Shown: one piece after another, positions 22,632 to 63,937 of the stretch
Layout of the letters: every line of letters begins with the position of its first letter
Numbering within the stretch: the first letter of the stretch is position 1
NCBI GenBank assembly: GCA_037178625.1
Contig: CM074135.1
Location: 2,048,001-2,112,000 of the forward strand
Direction of reading: 5' to 3'
Origin: Skeletonema tropicum
Taxonomy: Eukaryota > Bacillariophyta > Thalassiosirophyceae > Thalassiosirales > Thalassiosiraceae
Length of the DNA stretch: 64,000 nucleotides
Made by a program: the position numbers and the translations under genes
Notes under the pieces: generated by a model
The model's database searches: none
Told to the model about the DNA's origin: nothing
Seen by the model: only the letters and a program-made list of their open reading frames with translations

Positions 22632-30768
<8,137 letters not shown>

Positions 30769-31398: not shown

Positions 31399-34300
31399 AT
31401 GAATCATCCTAGTAATATAGACAATGGAGCGCCTTTACCCGACGATCATGTTGGATCTCCATCATCTGCAGAGCGCGCCTCGAAGCGCCTGCGACGTTCA
31501 GCATGCAATGACACTCCGACTTTGGCTGATGACACCCCGAACGATCAACTAACTTTGCCAGCGGAGGTGTGGGCGGGCGTCATGCAGTTCCTTTCTTTTG
31601 AAGATATTTTGACGTGCGGAGCCGTGTGTCGTAGCATTCTTCATGAGACCATGCCGCTGCTTACTCTATTACGAATTGATACGGCGGCGCAGATGCATTT
31701 GGGAGTTGCTTCCCGCTTCCGGGATGTTACTGACATTCACATCAATTCACTTTTGACAGAGGAGCTGATTGACGCAGGGACAGAATCAGAGATGAGAGAT
31801 ATTGAGGTTGATTTTAGAAACTAGAATAAAATGCATCCCTTTCATATCCAAATTCTTGCCAACACTTGAGCGAGTTCATTTTGGTGGGAAGAATGAACAT
31901 GGAAAAGTCATAAAAGGATTTGCTCCTGCAGACGGATACTTTTATGAAGGAGATGACCTTTATCCTAATGATGGAGCGCGGTCAAGCATGAAGGCTTTTA
32001 TTGATATGCTCTCGGGAGCTTTTGATATTGGGGCACTTCCAAATCATTTGAAGATATCGGGTCTCACTTGCCCAAACAATTGCAATTGGATGATGACTAG
32101 CAATAACTGCACTACATGTCAAAGGGCTTGTAAAAGCTTTCCACTTGAATCTGCAGTTGCATTTGAATCTAAGGGTTCATCTGCCAGCAATGCTCGCTCT
32201 GGGAGGCCGTATGGCCTGGACGTTTGCTTGAGAGTTGCAGAGGTGGAGAGGATCATTGAAAATCGGCCTGGAGGGAAAGAGCTGCTTCGAGCTGATTCAC
32301 GCCTTTTGAGGCTTTTGGGTAGTGGGAGGCGGTGGGTACTCAGTTCAGACGACAATGGTATTCAAGCACTCATAATTGTCAAGTACACACAAGCTCAACT
32401 TGCCGAGATCAAGAGAGTGATTCAATATGCTGAATTGGACGTAAAAAAGTTGTCTGCGCAAAAAGTGCACGAAGCAGTTTCAAAGTCATTCACTGGGGCA
32501 CCAACACTTCTTTTAGAACGATGGCATCTATCCGAAAAGGCACTGGCAGTTTTGAAGGATGAGATAGGCCTTTCGATTGACAGAGGTCAATTTAGGTGTC
32601 ATCTTCAGATATCCGTCCGCATTTGAAGGCAGTCGTCCAGATATTGGTAGACTATTATGATGATGATGATGAACGTCCTTTCACTTTCATCTTTGATAAC
32701 GAAGCCATTTTGAGTGATTGTTTCAAGCTCCTCAGACGTCTCGTCGAGTTTGAAAATGATGTGACAATGGAAGACATTAATGATGCTATACCCTGCTTGG
32801 TTGAAGCGTTGAGTTTGTATGGTGATAAAGAAAATCAAATGGAAGCGGCAAGTGCGTTAGGAATCATTTTTGCCAAAGGTACTGAAGGACAACGAAAGAA
32901 GATCACTGATGCTGGAGTGATTCCCAAATTTACTCGGTTGCTGAATTCTTCCGAAGATAGCATTACCAAGATTGCTTTACTCGGATTGGTCGATATTTTG
33001 GTCGGCGAGAAGAAGGATCACGTCGAGGCAATGGTAAATGCAGGTGGCACACCAAAGCTTGTTGAGTTGTTGCGCTCGTCAGAAGACGTGAGGGTCAAGG
33101 GATCTCAAAGTCTACTGGTTATCTCTGCTGATGATCACATTCAAAAGGTGATCGATGCTAAAGTTCATGACAGTCTCTTCCGTATCATACTTTCCGATGA
33201 TCAGGCAGAGAGTTTACCGAAGTGCTCTTTGTTACTTCGCAAGATATTCGAGGTTGAAAAGCCTCCCATTCAGCAAGCAATCGACGCAAATTTGGTGTCA
33301 AGACTTGTGCAAATCATAAGTACAAGTGAGGATGAAAGTGTTGAGACAAATCTAGCTTTCGTATGCATCTCTCTTGCATCAAAGGCTATTGAAGACAACA
33401 TTGAATCATTGATGAGAGATACCGGCCTTCTTCAGTTGCTGGTGAGTTTACAAGACTCATTGATTGAATCCATTTCGGTACAAGCTGCTACTTGCCTTGA
33501 TCACATTGCAAATATTAGGACATCGTTTGATGCTGAATGTGAGGAGGCTCTCTCCTGGGGAGAGTACCGTGTGCTTGATCTTGTCGATAGTGATGACGAC
33601 AGCGCAATCTCATTCGAGGAAGCTATGGAAGTAAGCAATGAGCAAGTTGCATTGGAAGAGCAGCAAGCAGCGGCTGCCAATGCCTCGATTTATGTATACC
33701 AAGCTGATTCTTCGGCATATGAGGAGGATAAAACAGAGACTCCTTCGCTACTTGACATTCCTCAAAGTTTGCTACAGACTATTCTCATCTACACCACTAG
33801 AAAACAAGCTGAACTCAACGTTCTAGCGACTGTTTGCAAAAAATTCAGCACAATTGTGGACATTCGCAATGACAGTGGGATTCATAGATGTCACCCTCTT
33901 AAATGTCACCCTTCCATTAGAAAAGTGCATGGCTACAAAGTCGGCAAGTCGGCTCAAGTTGCAGGGCTGCGCATGATTAGATTGGCTCAAAGTCGAGGGA
34001 ACACGGACAATGAAATAATGGAAGTCATTTGTGAAAGAGGCTTGGTCGATGGAGTTGCTCATTTGTATGCAGACGAGTTGAGCAAGTTAGCAGCTGATAT
34101 TTTGACAAGAATGAATCATTTTGGGACAGATTTTTCTTTTCGACTCCGAGGAGACACTGTTGATCATCTTTTCGGTGCGTATTTGAAAGGCTAGTGTGTA
34201 TGCAGCTTTAACTCTGATCTGCTGCTAACTTGTGTCATCTTATTATCTTCGCCTTGGCAGAATTGTTACAGGAATTATATGGTGAGGAGACTTGAGGATG

Positions 34301-35379
34301 CATTGTTGATGGCAATTCATTGTGGGAGAACAGAGGTCCAGGAGCAAGATTTTACTCTCTTACCTTCTCAGGAGAATCATTCGAAGTGTAATGTGGCCGC
34401 AAATTATCATGGGGTGGAAGGCCTTGGCTTTCTTTGCTCGTGTGGCCTTGCGTCATCCAGTAACATTGTTTGGCGATGGCCAACAAATAACTGCCGGGAT
34501 TTATTGCCACCAGGTGCTGGTCGCAAAATCATCAGGAGACTCGCTTACAGGGCTGGGATAGTTCGATTAACCAGTGCTGCTTTTGAGATTGCCGAAGCTG
34601 AACTTCTTCATACTCTGGGCGTTCTACTAGTAGAGGCGTACGAATCATCTGTGGAAATATCGAAGAGTGCCCGGTTCCTCGGTCCTAAACAAGCACTCCC
34701 TTACAAAATGAGAATAGTTCCTGGCTGCATTGATATGTTTTATGTGCCACCCCCTCCGCTCACTCAATCTCTCAATGACGAAGAAACAAACCAGACTGAC
34801 GAAAATCCTCCTGTTTACACGATTGTTCCAGGACAGATCAGTGCTGCAGCCCAGCGAAGGAATATTGAGCCTCATGACGTTTACGCATCCGATGGTTGGA
34901 TGATCTCAAGGAATTCACCTGAAGATGAGGAGGTTATCGAAAGGAGCTATTACTACAAAGATCATTATTATGAAGACTGTGATCATTGCTTCCCACGTGA
35001 TTGTGATTGTGACTGTAAAATCGGCGGTAATGGTAATGAAGAGCTCAAAGGCACTGCTAGTGGTAATGACGAGATGCCAGCTGACAACGTTGTCGACGAT
35101 AGCGATTCTCATGTTGCCAACCATCATGAAGCAGCCCCTGTTATTGCACCTGCTGTTGCCGATGCCAATGCTGCGAACGCCCCTCAACCAGCACCAGCAC
35201 CAGCACGGAATGAATTAGATGCACTGCGCAATCATCCACAATTCCAGGAGCTGCGAAGAAGCTTCCAGAACGGCTTTGCTTCAGGACAGGTTTTGCTCCG
35301 TGAAATTATTCAGCAGCACCCAGGACTAGGAGATGCCATTGATTCCAATCAGGCTCTATTTTATGATATGATGAGCTAG
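31399..35379 (+). CDS. F-box / armadillo / H3-like + H4-like histone fold / STI1 protein, copy 1
   Basis: Start at the ATG 31399. Exon 1 runs to 34174 and exon 2 is 34261-35379, with an 86-nt intron in phase 1. The product is about 1,295 residues. In order: an F-box (LTLPAEVWAGVMQFLSFEDI); a Cys cluster (CPNNC...CTTCQRAC); armadillo-type repeats (for example ITDAGVIPKFTRLLNSSEDS and AMVNAGGTPKLVELLRSSED); a second F-box-like motif (LLDIPQSLLQTILIY). Then an H3-like fold spans the splice site (LEDALLMAIHCGRT) and an H4-like fold follows (RKIIRRLAYRAGIVRLTSAA). A Cys/Asp-rich linker precedes a RAD23-type XPC-binding/STI1 tail (LRNHPQFQELRRSFQN). Three frame breaks exist relative to the other copies: +1 at about 31815, -1 at about 32595 and +1 at about 34274. 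No function is known; a ubiquitin-chromatin link is my inference. Confidence 0.8.
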
Positions 35380-35659: not shown

Positions 35660-36757
35660 TCACTGTCCAAAGTAATGCTTCGTGTGCTGCCATGTTTCTC
35701 GTAGAGCTAGCCTCTCCGTCATTTTGGATACGGCATCAATCTCATCTGCGGTGTAGTAATCTCTGTACGTCTTCCCTGTGACAAAGGGCGGCGCATCTGC
35801 AACTTCTTCTTGCTCCAAGAACTCAAGCAGAGCATGCTTCGTCTCGTTCAGGCTAGTAGTATAGCTCTCGTAGTGAATGACGAGAGTTGGGATCCCAAGA
35901 TCCCACGTGGTGGTAAAAGCCATGTTATGCCACTGAATGTAGCGATAGAAGTCGGCCTTGCAAGGAATGTCAAGATCGAGAACATCTTCAAAGAATATAT
36001 GTGCCTGTTTTTGCGCCTCCTCTAACTTTCCTAAATCGTTACAAAAATGACGGAATCCTTCTCTTGAATTAGGATAATGCGCTTTATTCTTCTTCTCCAG
36101 CGTTCGCCGCTCCAAATGAAACCTTGCTACTACATTATCAAAGGGGTCTCGAATAATATGCACTGCGCGAGCAATCTTGTCCTTTGATGCAAACCCTTTC
36201 GAAACCTCAAACCCAGAAGCAGAAGTAGCATTGGTGACGTAGTCTCCTTCGAGGCACTTCTTCAAGAAGATGTGCGAGTTATATATGAAGGAGTCACAAG
36301 CTGCACAGAAAGAGAACCCACCGCAATGTGTCTTGGTGAGGATGTAGCCTTTGGAGGGCGGCTGTAGATTAGCATTCCAGCTTTCCGTCCACGTTGGGAT
36401 AGGGTTGTCATTGAAGATGCCGACAGAGGGGCTGAATTCAGCCAGCTCGTCTATTCCACTTTCGTGACCATAATTTGAACCTGTATTTGTTTTTGTGACT
36501 GTTCTTATGAGATATGAAGTATATGACGTGCCAGAATTGGGAAACGACATCAACCAGGCAATCCGATTGAGACCATTCTCTAGCGGCGTGGTGGTGTTTG
36601 TAGTGGAAGTCGTCGATTCGAAATGTTGAGGGGCTAGTAGATCAGCTTCGTGATTGAAATTTAGAGATGAGAAGTAGCGGCTGGAGGAGATGAGCCCGTC
36701 CAACAATATGCCCGCCCCGACTGAAAGAAGCATGAGAGAGATTCGGATTGTTTTCAT
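35660..36757 (-). CDS. type II membrane sulfotransferase
   Basis: The 365-residue frame is intact. It begins with a short basic segment and a signal-anchor (ISLMLLSVGAGILLDGLI), so the enzyme is probably Golgi-lumenal. The PAPS 5'-phosphosulfate loop is SFPNSGTSY (residues 71-79), and the 3'-phosphate block is VHIIRDPFDNVVARFHLE (about 199-216). It would transfer sulfate from PAPS to a carbohydrate or protein acceptor that the sequence does not reveal. It lies tail-to-tail with F-box copy 1. The pair is duplicated together, and the second sulfotransferase copy is degenerate. Confidence 0.87.
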   Translation of the reverse strand: MKTIRISLMLLSVGAGILLDGLISSSRYFSSLNFNHEADLLAPQHFESTTSTTNTTTPLENGLNRIAWLMSFPNSGTSYTSYLIRTVTKTNTGSNYGHESGIDELAEFSPSVGIFNDNPIPTWTESWNANLQPPSKGYILTKTHCGGFSFCAACDSFIYNSHIFLKKCLEGDYVTNATSASGFEVSKGFASKDKIARAVHIIRDPFDNVVARFHLERRTLEKKNKAHYPNSREGFRHFCNDLGKLEEAQKQAHIFFEDVLDLDIPCKADFYRYIQWHNMAFTTTWDLGIPTLVIHYESYTTSLNETKHALLEFLEQEEVADAPPFVTGKTYRDYYTADEIDAVSKMTERLALRETWQHTKHYFGQ

Positions 36758-37036
36758 ATTGTGTTGGAGAACGACTGCAGAGTCTGCTATGCAAAATTAT
36801 TGAAGACCAAGAAGATTGAAGTTTAAAAAATAGAGAAAGGAGTGAGAATTTTTTTGGGAGCCATGCTTGATCAGAGCCAAGTTAATCAAAAAATAGTATT
36901 ATTAAAGCGAGACCCTACTCCTTGATGAGTTAGGGCTGTGTACAATTGACCTCATGACAGAACTAGTTGTCCTTGCAGTCCCTAGGTACTCCTCCCACGT
37001 AGCGGCAGCTTGATGAATTGATGGCCCTCTTAAGAT

Positions 37037-37969: not shown

Positions 37970-38305
37970 TATTCACGATAGGGAATCACCCTTCGGATAT
38001 TAATGCGTCACTGGTCTTAGACGTTGTAGAATGGTAGCAGTTTCATTCACGTGTACTTGTGTAACATTGTAGGGACCTTCTGTCTTATGCCCTAATTTGT
38101 TTGGCTTGTGCAACTTCTTTAGTACACGTTGTCCGACTGTGTAATCATATCTTCGTCGTTTTGCATTGTGCCGTCTGAGGCGGTCGTTAACGAATTGCTC
38201 ATGATGTGCAGCAATCATGCGCCAATCTGCAATGAGTGGCAAGTTGATGAACATGTCTCCGTGGTGCCGCTGCCGAAATAGACCAAAGAGGTAGGCATGC
38301 GTCAT
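37970..38305 (-). pseudogene. retrotransposon Pol fragment (integrase C-terminal region)
   Basis: The frame contains DMFINLPLIADWRMIAAHHE, then LRRHNAKRRRYDYTVGQRVL and TEGPYNVTQVHVNETATI. After a +1 shift near 37993 it ends RINIRRVIPYRE. This is the pattern at the C-terminus of LTR-retrotransposon polyproteins abundant in diatoms. Everything upstream (protease, RT, RNase H, integrase core) is missing and is replaced by the repeat at 38291-38554. It is a dead fragment. Confidence 0.72.
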
Positions 38306-38554
38306 TCTAGATCGAAATCGCAGTTATTGAGTTCAAATTTGTCGAGAGGTGCTCCATATCGACGAATTATAGTTTCTTATGCAACAAATAATGTATTAAT
38401 AATGTTTGGGATGTTACATTTAGCTTACTTTATGTATTTTTGTCCAGTATGATGGCCATTTTTATGACTCTTTTCATGTTGCTCTAGTGTTTTGTGCGTG
38501 AAAATTGCTAAATGGTATACCGCGGCTACGGTACCATTTGGTTCCCGCCAGTAG
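38291..38554 (-). repeat. partial copy of the 0.55-1.06 kb element
   Basis: Read on the minus strand from 38554 it starts CTACTGGCGGGAACCAAATG and follows the left 265 bp of the element at 551-1062, through CACGCACAAAACACTA, GAAAAGAGTCATAAA and TTTCGATCTAGAATGACGCATG. Its outer end lies about 85 bp upstream of the start codon of F-box copy 2, so it has probably replaced part of that promoter. Confidence 0.75.
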
Positions 38555-40078
38555 CAAGCCAAACCAATCAGATCCATAATAATATCTTCTGTCGACACTA
38601 TCATCCTGATCGTGAAGAGCAACGGAGTCAGAGGGCCAATGAATCATCCTAGTAATATAGACAATGGAGCGCCGTTGCACGACGGTCATGTTGGATCTCC
38701 ATCATCTGCAGAGCGCGCCTCGAAGCGCTTGCGACGTTCACCACGCAATGACACTCCGACTTTGGCTGATGACACCCCGAACGATCAACTAACTTTGCCA
38801 GCGGAGGTGTGGGCGGGCGTTATGCAGTTCCTTCCTTTTGGAGATATTTTGACGTGCGGAGCCGTGTCTCGTAGCATTCTCCATGAGACCATGCCGCTGC
38901 TTACTTTATTACGAATTGATACGGCGGCGCAGATGCATTTGGGAGTTGCTTCCCGCTTCCGGGATGTTACTGACATTCACATCAATTCACTTTTGACAGA
39001 GGAGCCGGTGGAAGTAGGAGGCGAAGCAGAGTTGAAAGTTATTGATGTAGATATTGAAACTAGAATCAAATGCATCCCTTTTATATCCAGGTTCTTGCCA
39101 ACACTTGAGCGAGTTCATTTTGGTGGAAAGACAGAAGAAGACGGAGAAGACATAGAGGGGTTTGCTCTTGCAGACGGATACTTTTATGAAGGAGATGACC
39201 TGTATCCTGATGATGGAGCGTGGTCAAGCATGAAGGCTTTTATTGATATGCTCTCGGGAGCTTTTGGCATAGTGGCATTTCCAAATCATTTGAAGATATC
39301 GGGTCTCACTTGCCCTAACAATTGCAATGGGATGATGAGTGGCAATAACTGCACTACATGTCAAAGGGCATGTAAAAGCTTTCCACTTGAATCTGCAGTT
39401 GCATTTGAATCTAGATGTTCATCTATCAGCAATGCTCGCTCTGGGAGGCCGTATGGCCTGGACGTTTGCTTGCGAGTTGCAGAGGTGGAGAGGATAATTG
39501 AAAATCGGCCTGGAGGGAAAGAGCTGCTTCGATCTGATTCACGCCTTTTGAGGCTTTTGGGTAGCGGAAGGCGGTGGGTACTCAATTCTGATGACAATAA
39601 TATTCAAGCGCTCATAATTATAATTGTCAAGTACACACAAGCTCAACTTGCCGAGATCAAGAGAGTGATTCATTATGCTGAATTGGATGTAAAAAAGTTG
39701 TCTGCGCAAAAAGTGCACGAAGCAGTTTCAAAGTCATTCACTGGGGCACCAACACTTCCTCTAGAACGATGGCATCTATCCGAAAAATCAATGGCAGTTT
39801 TGAAAGATGAGGTGGGCCTTTTAATTGACAGAGGTCAATTTAGCGTGTCATCTTCAGATATCCGTCCGTATTTGAAGGCAGTCGTCCAGATATTGGTAGA
39901 ATATGTTGATGATGAGGAGGAGGAATATCCTTCCATCTTTGATAACGAAGCCATTTTGAGTGATTGTTTCAAGCTCCTCAGGCGTCTCATCGAGTATGAC
40001 AATGACAGTGACAATGGAAGACATTAATGATGCTATACTACTATGCCTTGTTTGGTTAAAGCCTTGGATACTAGTAAC

Positions 40079-40578
40079 NNNNNNNNNNNNNNNNNNNNNN
40101 NNNNNNNNNNNNNNNNNNNNNNNNNNNNNNNNNNNNNNNNNNNNNNNNNNNNNNNNNNNNNNNNNNNNNNNNNNNNNNNNNNNNNNNNNNNNNNNNNNNN
40201 NNNNNNNNNNNNNNNNNNNNNNNNNNNNNNNNNNNNNNNNNNNNNNNNNNNNNNNNNNNNNNNNNNNNNNNNNNNNNNNNNNNNNNNNNNNNNNNNNNNN
40301 NNNNNNNNNNNNNNNNNNNNNNNNNNNNNNNNNNNNNNNNNNNNNNNNNNNNNNNNNNNNNNNNNNNNNNNNNNNNNNNNNNNNNNNNNNNNNNNNNNNN
40401 NNNNNNNNNNNNNNNNNNNNNNNNNNNNNNNNNNNNNNNNNNNNNNNNNNNNNNNNNNNNNNNNNNNNNNNNNNNNNNNNNNNNNNNNNNNNNNNNNNNN
40501 NNNNNNNNNNNNNNNNNNNNNNNNNNNNNNNNNNNNNNNNNNNNNNNNNNNNNNNNNNNNNNNNNNNNNNNNNNNNNN
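40079..40578. other. assembly gap, 500 N
   Basis: Exactly 500 ambiguous bases, a usual placeholder for a gap of unknown size. The homologous stretch in copy 1 (about 32795-32835) is only some 40 bp, so the true content is either a short join or another insertion. Confidence 0.95.
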
Positions 40579-41247
40579 GAGAATCAAATGGAAGCGGCAA
40601 GTGCATTAGGAATCATTTTTGCTAAAGGTACTGAAGGACAACGAGAGAAGATCACTGATGCTGAAGTGATTCCCAAATTTACTCTGTTGCTGAATTCATC
40701 TGAAGATAGCATTACCAAGATTGCTCTACGCGGATTGGTCGATATTTTGGTCGGCGAGAAGAAGGATCACGTCGAGGCAATGGTGAATGCAGGTGGCATA
40801 CCAAAGCTTGTTGAGTTGTTGCGCTCGTCAGAAGACGTGCGAGTCAAGGGGTCTCAAAGTCTACTGGTTATCGCTGCAGATGATCACATTCAAAAGGTGA
40901 TCGATGCTAAAGTTCATGACAGTCTCTTCCGTATCATACTTTCCGATGATCAGGCAGAGAGTTTACCGAAGTGCTCTTTGTTACTTCGCAAGATATTCGA
41001 GGTTGAAAAGCCTCCCATTCAGCAAGCAATCGACGCAAATTTGGTGTCAAGACTTGTGCAAATCATAAGTACAAGTGAGGATGAAAGTGTTGAGACAAAT
41101 CTAGCTTTCGTATGCATCTCTCTTGCATCAAAGGCTATTGAAGACAACATTGAATCATTGATGAGAGATACCGGCCTTCTTCAGTTGCTGGTGAGTTTAC
41201 AAGACTCATTGATTGAATCCATTTCGGTACAAGCTGCTACTTGCCTT

Positions 41248-41680
41248 TGTTAGAAATGATAAAGTCACTGTCCCAGTAATCGATTACTGGGACAGTGACT
41301 TTATCATTTCTAACATAATGCAAGTCACCAGTCCGTTCCTAGACTGATGACAGGATTACGAGCCTTGACAGGACCGTAAGTCCATGCCATCTCTAGTCGA
41401 TTACTGGAGACAGGAGTAGGCTAGCGCAGGTCACACCTTGCAGCGTACACCTACATCTAGTGGGAATTACAGTACTAGTATTCCTCTAGCTAGATCTTTA
41501 TCTCCTAGTCCGCCTACTCGCAGTAGTACATATTTCCTCTTATCCATACCTGTCTCTAGGTGGGAAATAGAGGCTTTTTACCTCGCTGGACTCGAACTGG
41601 TGACTTGCATTATGTTAGAAATGATAAAGTCACTGTCCCAGTAATCGATTACTGGGACAGTGACTTTATCATTTCTAACA
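41248..41680. mobile_element. 433-bp element with identical palindromic termini and 5-bp target duplication
   Basis: The sequence GCCTT flanks both sides (41243-41247 and 41681-41685), and copy 1 shows the uninterrupted site near 33498. Each end carries the same 68-bp perfect palindrome starting TGTTAGAAATGATAAAGTCA and centred on ATCGAT (41248-41315 and 41613-41680). Being palindromic, these are both direct and inverted repeats. Inverted homology continues about 19 bp further in (TAATGCAAGTCACCAGT versus its complement). Inside the right end, on the minus strand, is a Pol III B-box-like AGTTCGAGTCC. No coding capacity. TG...CA ends and a 5-bp duplication recall LTR elements, but I do not assign a class. 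Confidence 0.85.
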
Positions 41681-43847
41681 GCCTTGATCACGTTGCACAT
41701 ATTAGGACCTCATTTGATGCTGAATGTGAAGAGGCTCTCTCCTGGGGAGAGTACCGTGTGCTTGATCTTGTCGATAGTGATGATGACAGCGCAATCTCAT
41801 TCGAGGAAGCTATGGAAGTTAACAATGAGCAAGTTGCATTGGAAGAGCAGCAAGCAGCGGCTGCCAATGCCTCGATTTATGTATACCAACCTGAATCTTC
41901 GGCATATGAGGAGGATAAAACAGAGACTCCTTCGCTACTTGACATTCCTCAAAGTTTGCTAGAGACTATTCTCATCTACACCACTAGAAAACAAGCTGAA
42001 CTCAACGTTCTAGCGACTGTTTGCAAAAAATTCAGCACAATTGTGGACATTCGCAATGACGGTGGGATTCATAGATGTCACCCTCTTAAATGTCACCCTT
42101 CAATTACGAAAGTGCATGGCTACAAAGTCGGCAAGTCGGCTCATGCTTCAGGGCTGCTCATGATTAGAAGGGCTCAAAGTCGAGGGAACACGGACAATGC
42201 AATAATGGAAGTCATTTGTGAAAGAGGCTTGGTCGATGGGGTTGCTCATTTGTATGCAGACGAGTTGAGCAAGTTAGCAGCTGATATTTTGACAAGAATG
42301 AATCATTTTGGGACAGATTTTTCTTTTCGACTCTGAGGAGACACTGTTGATTATCTTTTCGGTGCGTATTTGAAAGGCTAGTGTGTATGCAGCTTTAACT
42401 CTGATCTGCTGCTGACTTGTGTCATCTTATCATCTTCGCCTTGACAGAATTATTACAGGATTATATGGTGAGGAGACTTGAGGATGCATTGTTGATGGCA
42501 ATTCATTGTGGGAGAACGGAGGTTCAGGAGCAAGATTTTACTCTCTCACCTTCTCGGGAGAATCATTCGAAGTGTTGTGTGGCCGCAAATTATCATGGGG
42601 CGGAAGATCATAGCTTTCTTTGCTCTTGTGGCCTTGCGTCATCCAGCAACATTGTTTGGCGATGGCCAACAAATAACTGCCGGGATTTATTGCCACCAGG
42701 TGCTGGTCGCAAAATCATCAGGAGACTCGCTTACAGGGCTGGGATAGTTCGATTAACCAGTGCTGCTTTTGAGATTATCGAAGCTGAACTTCTTCATACT
42801 CTGGGCGTTCTACTAGTAGAGGCGTACGAATCATCTGTGGAAATATCGAAGAGTGCCCGGTTCCTCGGTCCTAAACAAGCACCCCCTTACAAAATGAGAA
42901 TAGTTCCTGGCTGCATTGATATGTTTTATGTGCCACCCCCTCCGCTCACTCAACCTCTCAATGACGAAGAAACAAACCAGACTGACGAAAATCCTCCTGT
43001 TTACACGATTGTTCCAGGACAGATCAGTGCTGCAGCCCAGCGAAGGAATATTGAGCCTCATGACGTTTACGCATCCAATGGTTGGATGATCTCAAGGAAT
43101 TCACCTGAAGATGAGGAGGTTATCGAAAGGAGCTATTACTACAAAGATCATTATTATGAAGACTGTGATCATTGCTTCCCACGCGATTGTGATTGTGACG
43201 GTAAAGGCAAAGAAATCGATGGTAATGGTAATGAGGAGGTCAACGACTCTTCTAGGGGCAATGACGAGGTGCCAGCTGACAACTTTGTCGCGAACGATAG
43301 CGATAACGATTCTCATTCTGCCAACCGTCATGACGCAGCCCCTGTTGTTGCACCTGCTGTTGCCGATGCCAATGCTGCGAACGCCCCTCAACCAGTAGGG
43401 AATGAATTAGATGCACTGCGCAATCATCGACTATTCCAGGAGCTGCGAAGAAGCTTCCAGAACGGCTTTGCTTCAGGACAGGTTTTGCTCCGTGAAATTA
43501 TTCAGCAGCACCCAGGACTAGGAGATGCCATTGATTCCAATCAGGCTCTATTTTATGATATGATGAGCCAGTGAGAGCCAGCGAGAGCGAGTGATCATCT
43601 ATAGACAGCGACGAACGAGTGCAGGAATCTACTTTGCTGGTATTTTGCTGGAGGCATATGGAATGCTTTCAGAGAAAACACCCAGCAATAATTAGTTTAT
43701 GAAATAATAAGCATCACATAACAAGAAGTCTTTTTGTTGCCAAGTTTTCATTATTATCGTGCACAACAAACTAGTGTCAATCACTTGTCTCCAAGGATCT
43801 TCTTTGACTAAACTGGACGCTTCAATGCTGATCGCCTCCCTCCTTTT

Positions 43848-62822: not shown

Positions 62823-63937
62823 CTAGCTCATCATATCATAAAATAGAGCCTGATTGGAATCAATGGCACCTCCTAGTCCTGGGTGCTGCTGAATAATTTC
62901 ACGGAGCAAAACCTGTCCGGAAGCAAAGCCGTTCTGGAAGCTTCGTCGCAGCTCCTGGAATAGTCGATGATTGCGCAGTGCATCTAATTCATTCCGTGCT
63001 GGTTGATGAAGGTTCGCAGCATTGGCATCGGCATCAGCAGGTGCAACAACAGGAGCTGCTTCATGACGGTTGGCAGAATGAGAATCGTTATCGTTCGCGA
63101 CAACGTTGTCAGCTGGCACCTCGTCATTGCCCCTAGAAGAGTCGTTGACCTCCTCAATACCATTACCATCGATTTCTTTGCCTTTACCGTCACAATCACA
63201 ATCGCGTGGGAAGCAATTATCACAGTCTTCATAATAATGATCTTTGTAGTAATAGCTCCTTTCGATAACCTCCTCATCTTCAGGTGAATTCTTTGAGTTC
63301 ATCCAACCATCGGATGCGTAAACGTCATGGGGCTCAATATTCCTTCGCTGGGCTGCAGCACTGATCTGCCCTGGAACAATCGTGTGAACAGGAGTAATTT
63401 CGGCTTCCTGGTCTGTTTCTTCGTCATTGACAGGTTGGGTGAGCGGAGGTGGTGGCACATGAAACATATCAATGCAGCCAGGAACTATTCTCATTTTGTA
63501 AGGGAGTGCTTGTTTAGGACCGAGGAATCGTGAGCTCTTCGACATTTCCACAGATGATTCGTACGCCTCTGCTAGTAGAACGCCCAGAGTATGAAGAAGT
63601 TCAGCTTCGGCAATCTCAAAAGCAGCACTGGTTAATCGAACTATCCCAGCCCTGTAAGCGAGTCTCCTGATGATTTTGCGACCAGCACCTGGTGGCAATA
63701 AATCCCTGCAGTTATTTGCTGGCCATCGCCAAACGTTACTGGATGACGCAAGGCCACAAGAGCAAAGAAAGCTATGATCTTCCACCCCATGATAATTTGC
63801 GGCCACATTACACTTCGAATGATTCTCCCGAGAAGGTAAGAGAGTAAAATCTTGCTCCTGAACCTCCGTTCTGTCAGAATGAATTGCCATCAACAATGCA
63901 TCCTCAAGTCTCCTCACCATATATCCCTGTAATAATT
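62823..63937 (-). CDS. F-box / armadillo / histone-fold gene, copy 3, 3' exon (partial at window edge)
   Basis: This is the last exon only. The acceptor is at 63938-63939 and the rest of the gene lies beyond the window. The frame is open across the exon and encodes the second half of the H3-like fold (LLQGYMVRRLEDALLMAIHS), the H4-like fold (RKIIRRLAYRAGIVRLTSAA), the Cys/Asp-rich linker and the STI1-like tail. Compared with the other copies there is one in-frame codon loss (SSSNVWRW for SSSNIVWRW) and substitutions scattered mostly in the linker. The pattern suggests that the histone-fold segments are held conserved. Confidence 0.85.

Follow-up and report, generated by a model that had tools for sequence, protein, structure and literature searches.

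Can a gene that does not encode a histone carry the two halves of a histone dimer in one chain, and if so, what might that chain do? The question is raised by a locus, here called copy A, in a window of 64,000 nucleotides from the diatom Skeletonema tropicum, where the initial annotation placed an H3-like fold followed by an H4-like fold at 34075-34715. The locus at these coordinates is decayed. It has relatives in a diatom family whose long form runs from an F-box through armadillo repeats, a second F-box, an H3-like domain, a Cys/His-rich linker and an H4-like domain to an XPC-binding domain; shorter members consist of an F-box and the H3-H4 doublet. This domain order, the homology to H3, the similarity to H4 over alpha1-L1 and the loss of charge are established by sequence comparison. 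On balance, we lean towards reading copy A as a decayed member of a family of F-box proteins in which an H3-H4-like pseudodimer would serve as the SCF receptor for a chromatin-related partner. The features of copy A, in window positions, are as follows.

31546..31653, + strand: first F-box (PF12937 F-box-like, E 1.8e-5, 24.8 bits against a cut-off of 24.3)
32896..33516, + strand: armadillo repeats (PF00514 Arm, E 3.1e-18, four stretches)
33745..33864, + strand: second F-box (PF00646, E 0.0057, 17 bits, below the cut-off of 20.5; F-box-like matched by 15 of 41 relatives)
33964..34029, + strand: H3-like alpha-N helix (family LRxIR+YQKST; H3 LREIRRYQKST), where the hhalign match to H3 begins
34069..34174, + strand: H3-like alpha1, L1 and start of alpha2, to the end of exon 1 (PDB profile match to histone H3)
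34175..34260, + strand: intron GTGCGT...CAG inside H3-like alpha2, its junction one base out of frame
34273..34368, + strand: 3' part of H3-like alpha2, L2 and alpha3 (YMVRRLEDALLMAIHCGR-TEVQEQDF; profile comparison)
34384..34494, + strand: linker with a C-H-CxC-C pattern, ending in WRWPxxxC; possible metal site
34519..34680, + strand: H4-like alpha1, L1 and putative alpha2
34681..34818, + strand: variable insert with a PPPP motif
34819..34899, + strand: conserved helix TIVPGQI..., candidate alpha3 of the H4-like half (from conservation)
35209..35376, + strand: C-terminal XPC-binding domain, as in Rad23 (PF09280, E 3e-10, 40 bits)

The extent first proposed for the doublet is too narrow, since the likeness to H3 starts at the alpha-N motif (33964-34029); on the 3' side the H4-like half may reach about 34899. 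Both strings quoted in the annotation, [N]YMVRRLEDALLMAIHCGR (34273-34329) and GRKIIRRLAYRAGIVRLTS (34519-34575), are present in copy A and are above chance. The product read across the splice site is not encoded by copy A as it stands: the donor (after 34174) and the acceptor (before 34261) join out of frame, with one extra base ahead of the MVRRL codons, and exon 1 holds two further frame changes. The residue G in that product came from the sister copies, as had been stated. In copies C and E the intron joins TVDHLF/TVDYLF to ELLQGYMV.

At least eight related loci are found in the S. tropicum genome, five of the long type and three of the short type. Among the long copies A-E only C and E (2/5) are uninterrupted, and intact copies lie both at the right edge of the window (copy C) and elsewhere in the genome, with uninterrupted gene models of 1293 aa (copy C) and 1302 aa. 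The other copies that touch the window are laid out as follows.

38507..43568, + strand: copy B, a broken gene
40079-40578: run of N in copy B
41248-41680: inserted element with 88-nt inverted repeats in copy B
42334-42336: in-frame TGA within the H3-like part of copy B
62826..63937, - strand: exon 2 of copy C (the 1293-aa gene model)
C9 2112025-2114791: exon 1 of copy C, outside the window

The doublet is not confined to copy A: among proteins with both halves, the H3-like half comes first in 80 of 80. Judged from their sequences, uninterrupted and transcriptome-derived members both exist in the family. For example, the MMETSP-derived protein P0027 has both halves of the doublet, and P0080, also MMETSP-derived, has both with the first one truncated. 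Paralogue dN/dS values are modest, 0.59 (C-E) and 0.44 (C-D). For the H4 alpha1-alpha2 part they are 1.10 and 0.60, calculated from few changes, and do not prove constraint on that part.

The H3-like half is the clearer of the two. A PDB search with profile A1, which comprises 41 family members, found histone H3 with a best E of 5e-6; among the 60 of 187 matches listed, 59 are named as H3/CENP-A type and the remaining one as 'Histone domain-containing protein'. In hhalign comparisons with the core histones the first half scores 47.1 with H3, versus 11.8 with H4, 11.0 with H2A and 10.7 with H2B. An unselected profile, whose start was not picked by the H3-like motif (a motif-picked version would be circular), matches H3 with a probability of 95% over 80 columns, the alpha-N helix included. 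Chance similarity was considered and rejected: neither any of 200 column shuffles nor the reversed profile reaches the real score. In an earlier run one of 100 shuffles had topped it with the odd value of 133.6, possibly an artefact; the rerun gave 0/200. Pfam Histone is matched at E<=1 by nine of the 41 A1 members (best 1.8e-4), and in P0012 the match falls in the H3 half. In the AIH motif around His113, the histidine is kept in 30 of the 39 rows that could be used. On these comparisons the first half can be firmly assigned as H3-derived, with homology that includes the alpha-N helix, alpha2 and alpha3.

Two details of the H3 alignment first offered need adjustment. The spacing is inexact, the stretch from the L1 loop to Tyr99 being two residues longer than in H3 when the family splice is used (...DTVDHLF-ELLQGYMVRRL...). 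The upstream TDFSF, likened to a motif of H3, occurs in copies A and B and in one database protein, P0088. AAVSF, PAVHF or similar stands in its place in copies C, D and E and in most of the other sequences shown, so the identity of TDFSF with H3 is partly coincidental. Searches of the same genome with PF00125 and PF15511 (60 and 38 matches) did not include the copy A locus, so these family models alone would miss it.

Between the two halves lies the linker, whose C-H-CxC-C pattern is found, in a loosened form, in 52 of 70 relatives; the initial narrower pattern was found in none of the 70.

The second half resembles H4 over alpha1-L1, more weakly than the first resembles H3. Its hhalign score is 26.6 with H4, versus 12.9 with H3, 16.6 with H2A and 16.2 with H2B, and none of 200 shuffles reaches the H4 score. 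The match covers 25 columns, all in alpha1-L1. These profile methods back the original claim of a single chain in which an H3-like segment is followed by an H4-like one, each half preferring its own histone; for the histone-profile search proposed with that claim, the H3 half gave a clear hit and the H4 half a weaker one (PDB E 0.034, over alpha1-L1 only). It is unlikely, in our judgement, that there is no doublet at all, that is, that only the H3-derived half is a histone fold and the second half is a helical domain of other origin, with an IRRLAxxAGIxxxS start that is H4-like by chance or convergence. Several results would fit that reading. No Pfam histone family was matched in any of 16 segments of the H4 half, and the reversed profile scores 19.4 against 26.6 for the real one. 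For the putative second helix, hydrophobicity gives no in-register match (r 0.18, with p 0.18 by permutation), and shifts of -4 and +7 give higher values. Matches to histones in the PDB have E-values of 0.034 to 1.9, and Spc34 and borneol dehydrogenase are also among the matches. In part, the same PDB searches also speak against a single fold. The insert-free profile gave three matches at E<=5, all histones with H4 first; a further search gave H4 first and borneol dehydrogenase second; and with the insert kept Spc34 came first, via the insert, and histones made up three of eight matches. H4 and the second fold of HMk were matched in all three. The shuffles and the preference for H4 over H3, H2A and H2B argue likewise for a doublet, and the H4-like segment is placed where the dimer partner of the H3-like fold would be expected. 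The candidate alpha3 of this half comes only past the variable insert. By eye TIVPGQI resembles alpha3 of H3/H4; the D4c-H3 score is attained by nine of 100 shuffles, which is not significant, and the comparison was set aside.

Charge distinguishes both halves from true histones. The net charge of the H3 half is -4 in copy C and -2 in copy E, versus +6 in human H3, and that of the H4 half with its alpha3 candidate is +1 and +4, versus +9 in human H4. With net charge as the proxy, the H3 half of copies C and E shows no basic DNA-binding surface. The positive charge of histones being largely lost, DNA wrapping is unlikely. The earlier suggestion that the doublet binds partners rather than DNA would fit this loss. 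That the module still binds DNA or nucleosomes directly and recruits an SCF ligase to chromatin, perhaps at lesions and together with XPC/Rad4-type factors, is decidedly improbable: net charge is largely lost in both halves and is -65 for the whole protein, and in the H4 half the insert separates alpha2 from the candidate alpha3. On its side are the joint occurrence of histone-like domains with a Rad23-type XPC-binding domain and the view, given in a review, that many double histone folds bind DNA (PMC13088155). A possibility of some, if limited, weight is that the doublet is a neutral scaffold, providing stability or intramolecular contacts without any link to chromatin. The histone domain of Sos is the model, described in that review as a double histone fold that lacks DNA-binding electrostatics and serves autoinhibition and protein contacts (PMC13088155). 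Charge is lost in the diatom doublet too, and in the Cyclotella relative P0086 the doublet is combined with an AAA+ ATPase, and no F-box family was matched. However, the H3 half retains alpha-N and the AIH motif with His113, more than a bare scaffold seems to need.

The domains around the doublet suggest the preferred role, that of an SCF receptor. F-box-like is matched at E<=1 by 15 of the 41 A1 relatives (best E 4.9e-8) and by 14 of 19 in another set, and F-box proteins account for 15 of 41 PDB matches of profile A3, counting 1fs1 and KDM2B, which we take to be F-box proteins. The XPC-binding domain is found in 10, and a HYPK-type UBA in three, of the 41 A1 members. Rad23 combines a ubiquitin-like domain and UBA domains with the XPC-binding domain; of this set, the four copy A reading frames yielded only the XPC-binding domain. 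P0012 matches TIGR00601 (rad23) in part, with E 4.3e-6 and 26.2 bits, far below the cut-off of 207.3.

Most likely the H3-like and H4-like domains pack together into a pseudodimer of the H3-H4 kind. Through its F-box the protein would bind Skp1-Cullin1 and so act as the substrate receptor in an SCF ubiquitin ligase. The charge-depleted pseudodimer would be a recognition surface for the normal contacts of H3-H4, whether these are histones, a histone chaperone or some other factor of chromatin. Long members may gain extra binding surface from their armadillo repeats, and their XPC-binding domain, of the Rad23 type, may connect the protein to repair or proteasome-shuttle factors. A more specific version, which we regard as doubtful, takes the built-in copy of H3-H4 as bait with which the ligase receptor catches chaperones or free H3-H4 and so controls histone supply; capture could occur, for example, via an H3-H3'-like four-helix contact that retains His113. 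If true, this would be a cellular eukaryotic H3-then-H4 fusion, opposite in order to the viral doublets. To our knowledge no histone-mimic disposal system has been described in any other lineage. Taken as a whole, the family points to a possible protein-disposal factor that mimics the central unit from which chromatin is built.

Cullin adaptors include BTB proteins for Cul3 and F-box proteins for Cul1. The nearest eukaryotic parallel is ABTB2, which joins tandem histone folds, as the diatom family probably does, to repeats and a possible cullin-adaptor domain. It is an animal protein with BTB and ankyrin repeats, in contrast to the F-box and armadillo repeats of the diatom family; no BTB or ankyrin family was matched in the copy A reading frames or the 41 A1 members. 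In the review, ABTB2/Cca3 is described as a double histone fold with ankyrin repeats and BTB/POZ, and the folds of the related Cca3S as having about 25% identity to H2B and about 30% to H2A (PMC13088155), whereas the diatom domains are H3/H4-like. In yeast, the F-box ligases SCF-Met30 and SCF-Cdc4 control the H3 variant CENP-A (PMC7032732). They are a precedent for the kind of job proposed here. We know of no histone fold in the F-box proteins Met30 and Cdc4.

HMk of Methanopyrus kandleri (1f1e) has tandem histone folds, the second of which is among the PDB matches of the H4-like half; it is archaeal and lacks an F-box. It is also free-standing, and its halves are not known to be specialised as H3 and H4. 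Marseillevirus-type doublets (H4-H3, H2B-H2A) combine H3- and H4-like folds within a single chain, as is probable here, but in the order H4-H3 (PDB 'Histone doublet H4-H3'; PMC12297534) rather than H3-H4. The viral doublets form nucleosome particles with DNA (PMC13088155), whereas in the diatom family charge is largely lost and extra domains are present. A viral origin was considered and not adopted: IMG/VR contigs gave no relative, and 24 stretches fitted a pattern with none confirmed. The Sos histone domain and SAGA SPT3 are, as is probable for the diatom doublet, eukaryotic double histone folds outside the nucleosome histones; the domains joined to them differ, they resemble core histones little, and the review mentions no F-box for them (PMC13088155).

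Eukaryotes 'as a rule' have no fused histones (PMC10919886). The words diatom, F-box and ubiquitin occur zero times each in the review on double histone folds from 2026 (PMC13088155), and no report of an F-box/histone doublet in diatoms was found among the listed titles and abstract openings outside subscription papers and preprints. A recognisable H3 with alpha-N followed by an H4-like segment in cullin-type adaptors would be a further case in which histones fused independently, and in the reverse of the viral order. It makes the idea of a histone pseudodimer as a ligase recognition module testable, and would offer a natural H3-H4-like scaffold largely freed from DNA binding.

Five histone-fold proteins of the same genome (L047-L051) were considered as nearest kin and rejected: none scores as high as H3 with the first half or as high as H4 with the second. 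With the first half, two of them do outscore H4 and H2A. For scale, the comparison of H4 with L047, a protein that has a Pfam histone match, gave 25.3 in that run.

The gene that carries the histone-like segments encodes, in order, an F-box, armadillo repeats, a second and weaker F-box, the H3/H4-like segment and a Rad23-type XPC-binding domain. The five long-type copies in the genome (A to E) and the features that lie beside them are as follows.

Prp8 (splicing factor) C-terminal part, 28405-30768, plus strand: PRP8 domain IV, JAB and PROCT domains
Copy A, 31546-35376: broken by two frame changes in exon 1 and an exon junction off by one base
Sulfotransferase-like ORF adjoining copy A, 35660-36796, minus strand: PF00685 at E 0.0079, under the cut-off
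Copy B, 38507-43568: broken by a run of N, an in-frame TGA and a 433-base insert whose inverted repeats are 88 nt long
MITE-like element (the insert in copy B), 41248-41680: inverted repeats 99% complementary
Copy C, exon 2 at 62826-63937, minus strand: uninterrupted model of 1293 aa
Copy D, contig C19: frame-shifted close to the N-terminus
Copy E, outside the window on contig C9, to which the window also belongs: uninterrupted model of 1302 aa

The N run in copy B spans 500 bases (40079-40578) and is either a gap or withheld sequence. Each arm of the insert holds one perfect palindrome with 34-nt halves. Three shorter relatives are found on contig C14. In two of these, one open frame (506 and 516 aa) encodes both H3-like and H4-like segments as well as an F-box that scores weakly (F-box-like E 0.057 and 5.4e-4, under the cut-off).

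The H3-like segment proposed in the initial annotation is borne out by profile searches. A profile of 41 relatives gave 187 matches at E<=5 among 177,635 PDB sequences (best E 5e-6); 59 of the best 60 are named as H3/CENP-A type and the other as 'Histone domain-containing protein'. A more divergent profile of 19 sequences had 41 matches, of which 24 are histones (HPhA counted among them), 15 contain an F-box (1fs1 and KDM2B included) and 2 are Nek2 chains. A further profile was built from a fixed stretch cut around the domain in 67 proteins, with H3 motifs playing no part in the choice. It scored 47.1 against H3 (47.5 with gaps trimmed) over 80 columns, compared with a maximum of 19.6 for 200 column shuffles and 9.7 for the reversed profile. 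Scores of the first half against the other core histones were 11.8 (H4), 11.0 (H2A) and 10.7 (H2B). Across eight members, hydrophobicity along alpha2-alpha3 correlates best with H3 at the in-register offset (r 0.63). The H3 alignment begins at the alpha-N helix (LRxIR+YQKST for LREIRRYQKST in H3), and the AIH motif at His113 keeps its H in 30 of the 39 rows that could be used; of 43 rows, 4 were removed as armadillo false matches, and one row is out of register. These two features point to descent of the first half from H3 itself.

The H4-like segment fared less evenly: it held over alpha1-L1 and failed in the Pfam and second-helix comparisons. A profile of 63 second halves scored 26.6 against H4, versus 12.9 for H3, 16.6 for H2A and 16.2 for H2B (maximum of 200 shuffles 19.9, reversed profile 19.4), in an alignment spanning 25 columns only. 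With three versions of this half, PDB searches returned histones as 3 of 8, 3 of 3 and 3 of 4 matches, in every case two H4s together with HMk's second fold. The best histone E, 0.034, came from the search with four matches, whose single non-histone was borneol dehydrogenase; in the search with eight, Spc34 ranked top through the insert. By contrast, no Pfam histone family was detected in any of 16 second-half segments, and the hydrophobicity of the second helix did not match in register (r 0.18, p 0.18; offsets -4 and +7 were higher). Given the profile and PDB support set against these negatives, the predicted H4-like alpha1-L1 is regarded as real and a complete H4 fold as likely.

The doublet recurs in diatom proteins. 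The database search for relatives retrieved 57 matches, the profile search 105 and a third search 18, counts bounded by a preselection in which only about 8,000 candidates sharing most words were scored each time. One of the 57, P0057, is similar through the Rad23-type end alone. Names given by the sources include Skeletonema marinoi, S. dohrnii, Cyclotella meneghiniana and MMETSP transcriptomes; the MMETSP-derived members P0027 and P0080 suggest that the family is transcribed. Among 125 collected proteins, 80 carry both halves, always H3 before H4, 19 the first alone, 23 the second alone and 3 neither. One source labels relative P0071 'histone H3/H4', so the likeness has already been noticed by automatic annotation. 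A C-H-CxC-C pattern between the halves, possibly a metal site, is kept in 52 of the 70 relatives, out of the 125, with a WxWP motif and at least 45 residues preceding it.

Attached domains differ among relatives and include F-box, armadillo, XPC-binding, HYPK-type UBA (3 of 41) and AAA+ ATPase. For example, in P0086 of C. meneghiniana the doublet segment is fused to an AAA+ ATPase (PF00004, E 1.1e-31), with no F-box family among the 25 matches listed out of 26. A coiled-coil-like stretch, judged by eye, is also joined to it. Precomputed Pfam labels are PF02671 (PAH) on P0064 and PF13306/PF13855 (leucine-rich repeats) on P0079.

The H3 half has a net charge of -4 in copy C (101 residues) and -2 in copy E (106 residues), whereas human H3 has +6 (88 residues). 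The H4 half (56 residues) together with the candidate alpha3 (29 residues) has +1 in copy C and +4 in copy E, compared with +9 for human H4 (79 residues). Whole-protein charges are -65 (C) and -76 (E). Wrapping of DNA by the doublet is therefore unlikely on charge. Paralogue dN/dS is 0.59 (C-E), 0.44 (C-D) and 0.57 (C-A, exon 2). Per-domain values, all noisy, are 0.41 and 0.59 for the H3 half (C-E and C-D), 1.10 and 0.60 for H4 alpha1-alpha2, 1.32 and 0.56 for the insert, and 0.98 and 3.1 for the second F-box, with one synonymous change in each. Judged from these ratios, the paralogues are under selection overall, though not strict, and the C-E values do not show it for the H4 half.

The best reading is of a putative SCF substrate receptor whose H3–H4-like surface would be displayed to a partner connected with chromatin. 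In yeast, an H3 variant is controlled by F-box ligases (PMC7032732). Animal ABTB2, as described in a review of double histone folds (PMC13088155), carries such a fold in a multidomain protein, joined to BTB rather than to an F-box. The words diatom, F-box and ubiquitin are absent from the term-searched text of that review. Fused histones are as a rule absent from eukaryotes, according to PMC10919886. Viral doublets, going by a PDB entry name and a published abstract, run H4-H3, the reverse of the diatom order, and the search of viral contigs yielded no relative. Titles and abstract openings in the literature searched held nothing on an F-box/histone-doublet family. The family probably belongs among double histone folds in multidomain proteins, a kind already known; the new points are the H3-then-H4 make-up and the F-box as partner.

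Several side features were observed. A short ORF at 38003-38323 (minus strand) looks by eye like a retrotransposon integrase end, with nothing in Pfam at E<=0.1. Elsewhere in the genome, L037 (G000:C3:3720953-3721473) is a divergent H3 variant, PYRWQGSAILALQEAAEAHLVG, that could be a centromeric H3. Beside copy E lies a reading frame (L013) that by eye is near-identical to the sulfotransferase-like ORF by copy A, so the duplicated unit may take in that ORF.
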